Made by a program: the position numbers and the translations under genes. Positions 58,429 through 62,893 of a stretch of 64,000 bases of DNA are shown piece by piece. Positions within the stretch are counted from its first letter, which is position 1. Every line of letters starts with the position of its first letter. The stretch covers positions 682,001 through 746,000 of the forward strand of contig LVKA01000011.1 of the NCBI GenBank assembly GCA_001709035.1, read 5' to 3'. The notes under the pieces were generated by a model, which was not told the origin of the DNA, ran no database searches, and worked only from the letters and a program-made list of their open reading frames with translations. The stretch comes from Candidatus Thiodiazotropha endoloripes. GTDB lineage: Bacteria; Pseudomonadota; Gammaproteobacteria; Chromatiales; Chromatiaceae.

Positions 58429-58630
58429 CATCGGAACGCTTATTACATAGGCAATCGGCCTGCTCGATTCGCCGGGCAGGCGGCGTCGAAGCCTGACTCA
58501 TATGGCACTTTTGTGACCCTTGGCTCAGGCACTTCTTTATCATCATTGATGAGTGATAGTCTTAAGCATAGTCATGGCGGCTATCCACCACCTTCGTTTC
58601 ATCAAATTCATAAAAATTTAGGGTGACTGT

Positions 58631-60460
58631 TTGTTCGATTCAATGGTGATGTTGGCTTTTACCCTGGGGATCGTCAGTGCCTCATCGCTGCCCATGGGGG
58701 CGATTACAGCAAAATTCTGGCAACCCAGCGACCGTGCCACAGCAATACTCATGGCATTTGGCGGTGGCGCCCTGCTGGCGGCGCTGACCATCGATCTTGT
58801 GGCTTCCGCGGTCGAAGAGGGGCATTTTTATGCTCTGGCTGCCGGGGCCATGGTTGGCGGGCTGTTGTTCATCGGGCTCAATCAATTGGTCAACGACTAT
58901 GGTGGATTTCTGCGTAAGGCCTCCACCACCATCTACCATTTTCGCCGTAAACAGCATCAGCAGATTAAACAGATCATCTCACGTATCCATCAGGTGAAGC
59001 TGTTTCATGACCTGCCAACCAATGATTTCAAGATTATTGCGCCTTCAGTCCGAGTGGTTACCTTTCACAAGGGAGAGACTATCTTCCGTAAAGGGGATCC
59101 GGCGGATACTTTCTATATCATCGATGTGGGTGGTGTCGATCTGTTCAGATCCGAAGCCGGTGAGCAGAATACGATTCAGTTGCAGGGTTACGATGTGTTT
59201 GGCTGGTATCCCTGTTTGACCTCGACACCGAATACGCTGAATGCGGTCGCCAGTCGCGAAACACGAGTCTGGCTGATACCCAAACATGCGATCGATACGC
59301 TACTGATCAATTCCCCTCACTTTCAACAGGAGGTCCATCTGCTGCTGCGCAGTGGTGAGCTACAGCACTACCTGGAACAGCAGCATCTGTTGACGACCGA
59401 TGAAATAGAGCGCTGGACCGACCAGGCGGTCCGGCAACTGATTCGTCGTGGTGTGGTACCCCCAGCGGTTGAAGTCAACCGTAATACCGCTGAGATATTG
59501 GAACGTTTCAATCAGATCAAGCGTCTGCCGATGCTCTCTGAATTGCCTGAAGAGGAGCAGATACTGATCGGACGAGCCTTGATTTACAAACGCTATCAGC
59601 GTGGCGATACCCTGTTTCTGCAACATACCCGTGCTGATCGTCTGTTCATACTCGATACCGGTGAAGTCAATCTGATCGATCCGGAAACTCCGTTGCAAAA
59701 GACGGTGGTGCTGCACGCCAATGACGCCTTCGGTACCTTCTCACTGCTCACCGGTGCCCGCCATTCTGTGACGGCCGTGGCGGCGGAGAATATTGGTCTG
59801 TGGGAGTTGCGTCGACGAGATTTTTACTCACTGCTGGGCAGTGCGCCGGTTTTGGCGGAACGCTATCGTGAGTTTATCCAGATGGGTGGTGCAAGGGACT
59901 ATCTGCAGAGCAGGCACCTGAACAGTGAACAGTCCCAGCGCTGGACCAGACAAGCACTCAGGTGCATCGATACCGGTGAAGAGTTACCCTCTGCTGCGGA
60001 TGTTGCCAGGGATCTGCATGCCAACAAAGCGGCACCACTGGCGATCTGGCTGGGCCTTACCCTTGACGGTGTACCTGAGTCACTTGTGATCGGCTCCAGT
60101 CTGATCAATGCGGGGGTCAGTATCTCACTGATTGCCGGTCTCTTTCTGGCCAACTTTCCGGAGGCACTCTCCAGTTCCTGCGGCATGAAAGAGCAGGGGT
60201 TCAAATTCAGAAGAATCTTCTTGATGTGGTTTTCACTGATGCTCCTGACCGGGGTGGGGGCGGCGATGGGTAACATCTTTTTTGTCAATGCCTCACCAGC
60301 CCTGTTCGCCTTTGTGGAAGGTGTGGCAGCGGGGGCGATGCTGACCATGATTGCCGAGACCATGTTGCCTGAGGCCTACTTCAAGGGAGGCTCGGTGGTG
60401 GGGATGTCGACCTTGTGCGGCTTTCTCACGGCGATCTTCTTCAAGACTCTGGAGGTTTGA
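58631..60460 (+). CDS. ZIP-like metal transporter interrupted by two cyclic-nucleotide-binding domains
   Basis: A 609-residue fusion. Residues 1-85 carry the first three ZIP-type helices (MAFGGGALLAALTIDLV). Residues about 100-240 and 300-415 are two cNMP-binding domains (VTFHKGETIFRKGDPADTFY and YQRGDTLFLQHTRADRLFIL), with the PBC-like GARHSVTAVA in the second. Residues about 468-609 return to ZIP helices 4-8 (GLTLDGVPESLVIGSSL; FLANFPEALSSS; AAGAMLTMIAETMLPEA). The ZIP ligand motifs HNxPEG and HEIPE are present only as DGVPES and NFPEA, so the histidines are missing. The nucleotide domains sit where ZIP proteins have the cytoplasmic loop 3-4, so binding could gate transport. Starts: TTG 58631 or ATG 58643. 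Confidence 0.85.
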   Translation: MFDSMVMLAFTLGIVSASSLPMGAITAKFWQPSDRATAILMAFGGGALLAALTIDLVASAVEEGHFYALAAGAMVGGLLFIGLNQLVNDYGGFLRKASTTIYHFRRKQHQQIKQIISRIHQVKLFHDLPTNDFKIIAPSVRVVTFHKGETIFRKGDPADTFYIIDVGGVDLFRSEAGEQNTIQLQGYDVFGWYPCLTSTPNTLNAVASRETRVWLIPKHAIDTLLINSPHFQQEVHLLLRSGELQHYLEQQHLLTTDEIERWTDQAVRQLIRRGVVPPAVEVNRNTAEILERFNQIKRLPMLSELPEEEQILIGRALIYKRYQRGDTLFLQHTRADRLFILDTGEVNLIDPETPLQKTVVLHANDAFGTFSLLTGARHSVTAVAAENIGLWELRRRDFYSLLGSAPVLAERYREFIQMGGARDYLQSRHLNSEQSQRWTRQALRCIDTGEELPSAADVARDLHANKAAPLAIWLGLTLDGVPESLVIGSSLINAGVSISLIAGLFLANFPEALSSSCGMKEQGFKFRRIFLMWFSLMLLTGVGAAMGNIFFVNASPALFAFVEGVAAGAMLTMIAETMLPEAYFKGGSVVGMSTLCGFLTAIFFKTLEV

Positions 60461-61849: not shown

Positions 61850-62893
61850 GTGACCGATTATACCCTCACCGTGCCCGAGCCAGTCGAAGGTGGCAGCATC
61901 GCCAGCATCTCCGGTGCCATCAACTGCCCGGGTACGTGTTCCGCCACTATTACCGCGCAAACGCAGGTTGAGCTTTTCTATAACCTTGATGGAGGTTACC
62001 AGTTTGGCGGCTGGTCTGGCGATAATGAAAACTGCAGCGGTAACGGTGCATCGGTCACCCTTACCATCACCAGTGATACGACTTGTGGCGCCAGTTTTAT
62101 AGCTGATAGCGAGACCCAATACACGGTCACTGTTAGTGCACCAGAAAACGGTACCGTGACCAGTGCCGGCAACGCGTTGAATTGTGGTGCTACCTGCAGT
62201 GCCGAATTTGCGCAAAGTGCCAGTCCGGTCACTCTTACCGCGACAGCGGACACGGGTTATGTGTTTTTGAGTTGGGGGGGAGACTGCGCTGCAGCAACCA
62301 GCAACCAGCAACCAGCAACCAGCAACCAGCAACCAGCAACCAGCAACCAGCAACCAGCAACCAGCAACGTGGCGGCGCTGGTATTGGATGGGAACAAGAG
62401 CTGTTCGGTAAGTTTTACCGAACTGGACAGCGATGCAGACGGTGTTGGTGACACTACTGACAACTGCCCGGTTGTGACGAATGCCGATCAACTCGATACC
62501 GATGGGGATGGGGTGGGAGATCTCTGTGATCTGACTGGGGAGTGGGATTTCCGCACAGAGGTGCCGGCGGCGACCGGTGACTGTCGAGGAGAGGTGGGCA
62601 TCGCCGATAACTACACCATCGACATTGATCAGGAGGGGCAAAATGTCACCCTCAGAGGCTTTCTTGGTGTAGCGACGAATGTGCTTCAGGGTAGTGTGGA
62701 AGGCAACACGCTTCTCTATTCAGGGAGTTATCCTGAACATCTTGGTACCACAACCCAGGAGAGGACCGAACTCACCATCGATTGGAATCCCCCCATCTCG
62801 ATGTCAGGTGTGGAGCAATGGAGTTGGACCGATGGGAGCTCGAGTTGCCCTTCCGGCAATGAGTCTGCAATCACAGCGACGTTTCGCAATTGA
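61850..62893 (+). CDS. Distal part of the broken surface protein, with a heptamer tandem repeat
   Basis: This 347-residue frame has no signal peptide and starts at GTG after AAGGGG, so it may or may not be translated alone. It contains InlB-B-type repeats (FGGWSGDNENCSG; FLSWGGDCAA), then a low-complexity TSNQQPA repeat made by a seven-base DNA repeat (62293-62368), then two thrombospondin type-3 calcium-binding units (DSDADGVGDTTDNCP, DTDGDGVGDLCD) and a C-terminal beta-rich domain (EWDFRTEVPAATGDCRG). It belongs in frame with the fragment at 61112-61711. The type fits an outer-surface adhesin or calcium-binding protein. Confidence 0.7.
   Translation: MTDYTLTVPEPVEGGSIASISGAINCPGTCSATITAQTQVELFYNLDGGYQFGGWSGDNENCSGNGASVTLTITSDTTCGASFIADSETQYTVTVSAPENGTVTSAGNALNCGATCSAEFAQSASPVTLTATADTGYVFLSWGGDCAAATSNQQPATSNQQPATSNQQPATSNVAALVLDGNKSCSVSFTELDSDADGVGDTTDNCPVVTNADQLDTDGDGVGDLCDLTGEWDFRTEVPAATGDCRGEVGIADNYTIDIDQEGQNVTLRGFLGVATNVLQGSVEGNTLLYSGSYPEHLGTTTQERTELTIDWNPPISMSGVEQWSWTDGSSSCPSGNESAITATFRN
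62293..62368. repeat. Heptanucleotide tandem repeat (AGCAACC, about 10.9 copies)
   Basis: Ten full copies of AGCAACC plus AGCAAC lie inside a reading frame. Because seven is not a multiple of three, gain or loss of one copy shifts the frame downstream. Confidence 0.95.

Follow-up and report, generated by a model that had tools for sequence, protein, structure and literature searches.

The window, i.e. the whole 64,000-nucleotide stretch of DNA that was analysed, contains a forward-strand gene whose single open reading frame (ORF) encodes, in this order, ZIP helices 1-3, two cyclic nucleotide-binding (CNB; cNMP_binding) domains and ZIP helices 4-8. The features of this gene are:

58631..60460, +, whole gene, 609 aa; TTG start, likely Shine-Dalgarno sequence AGGG at 58620-58623
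58631..58915, +, ZIP half 1, TM1-TM3, residues 1-95 (alignment, BbZIP profile match, hydropathy)
58793-58795, +, D55 in ZIP half 1, in place of BbZIP S106
58958..59494, +, repeat unit 1, residues 110-288: CNB1 and helical tail (YL 247-248, W262) (Pfam, duplication)
59192..59251, +, CNB1 phosphate-binding cassette region (residues 188-207), with W192 aligned to the pocket Glu and N201 to the pocket Arg
59495..60022, +, repeat unit 2, residues 289-464: CNB2 and helical tail (YL 424-425, W438) (Pfam, duplication, model)
59723..59785, +, CNB2 phosphate-binding cassette region (residues 365-385), with T369 aligned to the pocket Glu and H378 to the pocket Arg
60023..60457, +, ZIP half 2, TM4-TM8, residues 465-609 (alignment, BbZIP profile match, hydropathy)
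60065..60079, +, TM4 site DGVPE, residues 479-483, equivalent to BbZIP H177-E181
60149..60163, +, TM5 site ANFPE, residues 507-511, equivalent to BbZIP Q207-E211
60248..60250, +, T540 in TM6, replacing BbZIP E240 (M2 metal site)

The TTG start codon (58631-58633) is common to all five genus copies compared, namely: the window's, L005, L007, L008 and L009; an in-frame ATG lies 4 codons downstream. The gene is the sole PF02535 (ZIP) match in its own genome at E 0.001 or better. The nearest named record is L002 from Candidatus Thiodiazotropha taylori (Sedimenticolaceae, Chromatiales), with 96% identity over residues 86-609. Elsewhere in the window, eleven perfect copies of the 7-bp unit CAGCAAC are found at 62292-62368, inside the ORF 61850-62893. 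Because 7 is not a multiple of 3, slippage in this repeat would switch the frame, and the ORF is possibly a phase-variable gene.

ZIP fold and metal site

The Pfam ZIP model PF02535 matches the window protein with an E-value of 1.2e-7 and 31.7 bits, under its curated cut-off of 35.1. An alignment of the joined ZIP halves, with the CNB domains removed, and CNB-less relatives (A2; 11 rows, 253 profile positions) matches BbZIP (5tsa, 5tsb, 8czj and others) at E 6.1e-14 over profile positions 13-251 (239/253). At E up to 10, the A2 profile matched five chain sequences in the PDB, with E-values of 5e-14 to 3.2e-13, all over positions 13-251. One of the five is BbZIP by the depositors' name, and the available text of PMC9873690 gives PDB entries 5tsb and 7z6n as BbZIP. 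ZupT (NF003243) is absent among the 10 NCBIfam families listed for the window protein at E up to 1, and four CNB-less relatives score 32-43.7 bits against it, for an equivalog cut-off of 252.

Mean hydropathy over the 14 rows of the full-length alignment (A1) reveals three hydrophobic segments on the N-terminal side of the insert; the hydrophobic region on its C-terminal side fits five helices, with limits set by hand. In the same rows, positive charges lie in loops 1-2, 3-4, 5-6 and 7-8, the topology being N-out and C-out, and the insert is placed in the cytoplasm because of this charge pattern. The TM regions are the best conserved, with 55/150 invariant columns in TM4-8 and 30/95 in TM1-3 vs. 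3/120 in CNB1 and 12/120 in CNB2. A full-length structure prediction, made from the window protein, L002 and the C-terminal half of L151 alone, reached a mean pLDDT of 33.2 and a pTM of 0.21, which is too low to base a conclusion on. On profile and motif evidence, the window protein is a homologue in the ZIP fold superfamily that belongs to a His-less branch, and it is a non-canonical ZIP by motif and Pfam cut-off. The arrangement proposed in the earlier note, with ZIP halves at both ends and two cNMP domains in the cytoplasmic TM3-TM4 loop, is borne out by Pfam, the BbZIP profile match, and hydropathy and charge.

The binuclear centre of BbZIP comprises M99, H177, N178, E181, Q207, D208, E211 and E240, as given in the available text of PMC9873690. 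The aligned residues of the window protein are L48, D479, G480, E483, A507, N508, E511 and T540, respectively, so that H177 is replaced by D479, N178 by G480 and Q207 by A507. The HNxPE motif in TM4 is absent, the sequence there being DGVPE (DG in 15/15 two-CNB rows). The TM5 motif Q/H-N/D-x-P-E corresponds to A507-N508-F-P-E511, in which N, P and E are kept and Q is lost. The earlier note was thus correct that the ligand histidines are absent and that Pro and Glu are kept (DGVPE, ANFPE).

These positions were compared in 15 two-CNB proteins (the 14 A1 rows and L069, all found by homology) and in CNB-less relatives. In row counts that are not de-duplicated, and with the CNB-less groups sorted by TM4 motif so that positions 177, 178 and 181 follow there by construction, the centre reads L, D, G, E, S (11) or A (4), N, E, T in 15/15 two-CNB proteins; L, D, G, E, S (9) or G (1), N, E, S (6) or L (4) in 10 CNB-less DG rows; and M, H, N, E, Q, N (20) or D (8), E, E (26) or Q (2) in 28 canonical rows, while 17 rows with D-F/Y in TM4 keep Q and N in TM5 and have Gly at E240. 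D479, G480, E483, N508, E511 and T540 are fixed in 15/15 two-CNB proteins, and the site is therefore under constraint. As judged from the alignment, where Asp replaces His the M2-site partners N178 and E240 have gone too, and what is left of the binuclear metal site looks like a single carboxylate site.

The His-less site pointed out earlier is real, but it is not special to the CNB-bearing protein, as 10/10 CNB-less DG rows share it. The loss of His is independent of the CNB insert, because the CNB-less relatives share D-G...E in TM4 and N...E in TM5, and the CNB-bearing proteins group with them (see below). Asp is not universal in the His-less branch, since L071 and L072, both partial or broken, carry Ser-Gly in the TM4 motif. 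The TM5 Glu is replaced by Trp in L071 and by Gln in a Haladaptatus relative.

The CNB insert and its pockets

The Pfam model PF00027 (cNMP_binding) matches two stretches of the window protein, with a whole-protein E-value of 1.5e-31 and 108.6 bits (cut-off 27.5). Units 1 and 2 (residues 110-288 and 289-464) align to each other with an hhalign probability of 100 (E 2.4e-40), and their tails alone with a probability of 97.8 (E 9e-13). By these alignments, the insert is a tandem duplication of one unit made of a CNB and a helical tail. L248, W262, A266, Y424, L425 and W438 of the tails are invariant in 14/14 A1 rows. The unit-1 tail Trp is missing in all 13 examined proteins from the order of G738, and hence this tail cannot be an absolute requirement. 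The insert length, taken as the distance between the end of the GGFLRK-type motif and the TM4 motif, is 381-386 aa in 27/28 two-CNB proteins and 405 in one.

A model of unit 2 (CNB2 and tail), obtained from the window, L002 and L003 sequences only, has the CNB fold, with a mean pLDDT of 72.6 and a pTM of 0.69. Its best Foldseek match is the CNB of PKG (4ku8_A; E 5.6e-9), with TM-scores of only 0.50/0.58. Further matches are to the CNBs of PKA, SthK and MloK1, and the TM-score by query length is about 0.5 for PKG/PKA. The unit of the single-CNB relative L172 is a homologue of unit 1, and the homology extends into the tail (E 1.2e-16). Among the NCBIfam models, that of the family 2B encapsulin shell matches the window protein best (42.8 bits, for a cut-off of 400), at residues 280-417 (59468-59881), i.e. 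the CNB2 region; family 2B encapsulin shell proteins also have an inserted CNB.

According to the available text of PMC6940986, CNBs that bind their ligand do so with a Glu, which holds the ribose 2'-OH, and an Arg, which holds the phosphate. The corresponding residues of the window protein are W192/N201 in CNB1 and T369/H378 in CNB2. Pocket residues were counted in 28 two-CNB proteins: 14 A1 rows, 13 from the order of G738 and one from the class of G335, where ORFs with D[GT]xP[EG] and [NG]xPEA motifs were drawn. In this set, which includes the near-duplicates L007/L009 and L156/L069, the pocket Glu is kept in 0/56 CNBs and the Arg in 7/56; His occupies the CNB2 Arg position in 24/28 proteins. 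By sequence, the window CNB pair is of the CNB fold and a predicted non-binder of cyclic nucleotides. Both single-CNB relatives, L172 and L073, retain the pocket Glu and Arg. L172 is a 464-aa ORF with an intact TM4 motif, DGIPES. In L073 (G855), the TM4 motif is DTIPG (Glu to Gly) and the TM5 Asn is Gly, with the pocket residues intact, and L073 is possibly a non-transporting sensor.

Recurrence, phylogeny and selection

The search for the same order in other genomes, as proposed in the earlier note, brought the number of two-CNB proteins, counting that of the window, to 28; they come from three families belonging to two classes, and the two single-CNB relatives are in addition to these. Thirteen further full-length proteins from other genomes keep the order at 36-69% identity to the window protein, and together with it constitute the 14 rows of A1. 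A1 and the pocket count were made without the following copies, which are near-identical, split, cut or broken: L005, L006, L011, L012, L013, L061-L063, L065, L066 and L159; L005 was used only for dN/dS and the start-codon comparison. Two of the thirteen, L058 and L064, are diverged two-CNB ZIP paralogues in one genome (G515).

Within the genus, 7/22 genomes (its own included) have a full or contig-split copy, and one more has a 71-residue piece. L013 (G013:C44:20732-20905) is a remnant of the 3'-end of the gene, an 88-aa ORF that covers query residues 539-609 with 83% identity. The gene seems to have been lost in at least one congener (G013). At E 1e-20 or better, the family gives matches in 15/146 genomes and 12/61 genera, with some copies split, cut or broken. 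In the class sample (321 genomes), 30 matched the ZIP profile, and a CNB-size insert lies between the halves in one ORF only in its own genome, G738 and G855. The phylum sample (388 genomes) gave 35 ZIP-profile matches, with the insert only in its own genome among the matches listed, and the protein query found no other full-length match in 398 phylum genomes among the matches listed. In the order of G738, 14/62 genomes matched: 13 have one ORF of 613-660 aa bearing both halves, and G897 has the halves in two ORFs. A second full-length copy was not found in the 36 genomes of the order of G855, the four other matches being to the CNB part only. Three of the 240 genomes in the class of G335 matched: one with two CNBs (G1084), one with a single CNB (G1123) and one without an insert. 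The architecture is rare and patchy, and is present in two classes among the samples searched.

In viral contigs, one CNB-less relative was matched, with no match for the full-length alignment and none for unit 2. The query matched 28 plasmid records, with no single place covering >80% of it among the matches listed (15 of 28). CNB-less TM4-8 relatives occur on large plasmids, namely: L174 (1261-2022; Haladaptatus salinisoli, Archaea) and L175 (1186-1929; Deinococcus taeanensis, Deinococcota).

Two trees were calculated, both of which gave long-branch warnings and were midpoint-rooted for drawing only; L071 and L072 were excluded from both, as well as from the site comparison. In the 69-row tree, the 16 CNB-bearing proteins cluster together (99/89) inside a 26-row DG group (97/90), which is apart from the DF/DY and HN groups; the figures in brackets are support values. 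The 61-row tree has 14 further CNB-bearing proteins, is also without L070, L074, L078, L111 and L127, and retains no more than 12 canonical and 10 DF/DY rows after thinning. All 30 CNB-bearing proteins still group in it, with lower support (92/86). The 61-row tree places L172 among the two-CNB rows, where the support is uneven (83/97, 90/12), and gives L073 a long branch.

Overall dN/dS for the window's gene is 0.16 vs. L005, 0.10 vs. L008 and 0.15 vs. L007, with dS >1.5 for L008 and L007. A contrary segment of 46 codons, in the near-identical pair L007 vs. L009, has a dN/dS of 4.7 on very few changes. The codon changes fit purifying selection. The gene neighbourhood was compared in 21 stretches, some cut by contig ends, using a crude longest-ORF finder and counting clusters from 3 stretches up; outside the genus, no neighbouring gene that would point to a partner or a metal was found to accompany the window's gene. 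The gene's own cluster is present in 16/21 stretches (the L141 copy was missed by the finder), and no other neighbour cluster occurs in more than 3. Two are common to the window, G002 and G006, and two others, one in L139/L143/L144 and one in L140/L141/L142, do not extend to the window.

Possible mechanism and comparison with known systems

BbZIP is an elevator whose dimer is formed by the domain TM2/3/7/8, as described in the available text of PMC9873690. For ZIP4, the available text of PMC13202269 describes a sliding movement of TM1/4/5/6 against TM2/3/7/8; the TM3-TM4 loop connects these two parts and changes with zinc. Since TM3 is part of the static scaffold that forms the dimer, and TM4 is part of the transport domain that slides, the CNB module would be a covalent strut between moving parts. 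In addition, the available text of PMC6940986 describes CNNM4, a divalent-metal transport protein in which a CNB-like domain without cyclic-nucleotide binding dimerises.

Our preferred reading, to which we give about an even chance, is that the window protein is a His-less ZIP-fold elevator carrier for a divalent metal, controlled mechanically by a CNB-like strut in the TM3-TM4 loop; we infer the metal transport, the choice of metal and the mechanical coupling. The state of the module would be set by dimer packing, by a partner protein or by some ligand that is neither cAMP nor cGMP, and would bias or limit the elevator slide. The metal would cross at one carboxylate site (D479, E483 and E511, perhaps with N508 and D55), and not at a two-metal His site. 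The BbZIP profile match, the fixed site residues, the near-constant insert length, the tail residues that are invariant despite pocket loss and the CNNM4 precedent all favour such a carrier. The sub-cut-off PF02535 score, the replacements in the metal centre, the lack of a partner gene and the missing unit-1 tail Trp in the order of G738 count against it. Transport may be lost, because Leu, Gly, Ala and Thr take the place of four of the eight BbZIP centre residues.

More tentatively, these proteins could form a family of allosterically gated ZIP elevators, in which a form with a single pocket, such as L172, would be switched by second messengers, and the two-CNB form, to which the window protein belongs, would be a duplicate with pockets retuned to a different ligand or turned into a strut. 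The His at the CNB2 Arg position in 24/28 two-CNB proteins bears on the possibility of retuned pockets. We know of no ZIP previously described as being under the control of a CNB domain.

The CNB pair could also be only a scaffold for assembly or dimerisation, with transport being constitutive. The loss of the pocket Glu from 56/56 CNBs of two-CNB proteins, the CNNM4 precedent (available text of PMC6940986) and the formation of the BbZIP dimer through the scaffold domain (available text of PMC9873690) are in line with this. However, the insert is placed precisely at the junction of scaffold and elevator and has a nearly constant length, and a plain dimerisation domain would presumably be easier to accommodate at a terminus; we consider a scaffold role of this kind unlikely. 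Doubtful as well is a ZIP-derived receptor or transceptor, whose membrane part would bind outside metal and use the CNB pair for signalling, while transporting little or nothing. Such a role would agree with the presence of Leu, Gly, Ala and Thr at four of the eight metal-centre positions and with the Gly at the key TM4 Glu in the single-CNB L073. On the other hand, D479, E483, N508 and E511 are fixed in 15/15 two-CNB proteins, a Pfam search of the window protein found no output domain beyond the two CNBs, and the 21 stretches yielded no conserved partner gene.

The earlier note had suggested a ligand-gated ZIP transporter. With cAMP or cGMP as the ligand, the CNBs would bind it and switch the elevator. 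The CNB fold and the four Guanylate_cyc domain matches over cut-off in the genome speak for such gating, the latter making the presence of second messengers likely. With W192/N201 and T369/H378 at the Glu/Arg positions, and the Glu kept in 0/56 and the Arg in 7/56 CNBs of two-CNB proteins, cAMP/cGMP gating of the window protein is unlikely, and we regard this suggestion as improbable. The earlier note counted the lack of a ligand pocket as evidence against its proposal, and the losses in the window CNBs go in that direction; L172 and L073 keep both residues, which makes gating by cAMP/cGMP plausible in these single-CNB relatives. Finally, a chance ORF, mis-assembly or decayed gene can safely be dismissed despite the non-ATG start and the broken or remnant copies in the relatives G013, G494, G554 and G897, since the order is kept in 28 two-CNB proteins from separate assemblies and the overall dN/dS is well below 1.

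If the window protein is indeed an elevator carrier with a mechanical strut, its folded, duplicated, sensor-type module between scaffold and elevator makes the coupling question, i.e. whether a held loop stops the slide, testable in one protein. The series of CNB-less proteins, those with one CNB and its pocket, and those with two CNBs and no pocket offers a comparison for the gain and loss of elevator allostery. Furthermore, some proteins named ‘zinc transporter’ have no His ligands, and hence their metal should not be assumed. In the listed titles and abstract openings from the open-licence literature searched, including for PF02535 together with PF00027, a CNB-ZIP fusion is not described, and nothing was found in this literature on Thiodiazotropha and cyclic nucleotides.

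Among known systems, the MloK1 and SthK channels and the MFS-CNBD fusions resemble the window protein in having a CNB fused to a membrane transport protein. MloK1 and SthK are channels with a terminal, ligand-binding CNB, and the membrane part of the fusions is an MFS protein. The MFS-CNBD fusions are mentioned in the available text of PMC10710835. The CNNM magnesium transport proteins differ from the window protein in having no tandem CNB insert. Their membrane fold is another one, and their CNB follows the membrane part. They are likewise divalent-metal membrane proteins with a CNB-like domain that is without the pocket Glu/Arg, but they have a CBS pair (available text of PMC6940986). The Deinococcus taeanensis protein WP_225523609.1, a ‘ZIP family zinc transporter’, shares 45.8% identity over residues 468-608 and a similar site (LDGIPES and LSNLPEG), but has 247 aa and no CNB domains. 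With the ZIP/SLC39 proteins (BbZIP 5TSA, 5TSB, 8CZJ), the window protein shares the eight-helix fold, the PE motifs in TM4 and TM5 and a cytoplasmic TM3-TM4 loop, whereas it is without the TM4 His-Asn, the TM5 Gln and the TM6 Glu and has Leu for the TM2 Met. It also differs from them in having about 380 residues between TM3 and TM4; in ZIP4, control by the TM3-TM4 loop lies in a disordered segment with a His-rich part, as described in the available text of PMC13202269.
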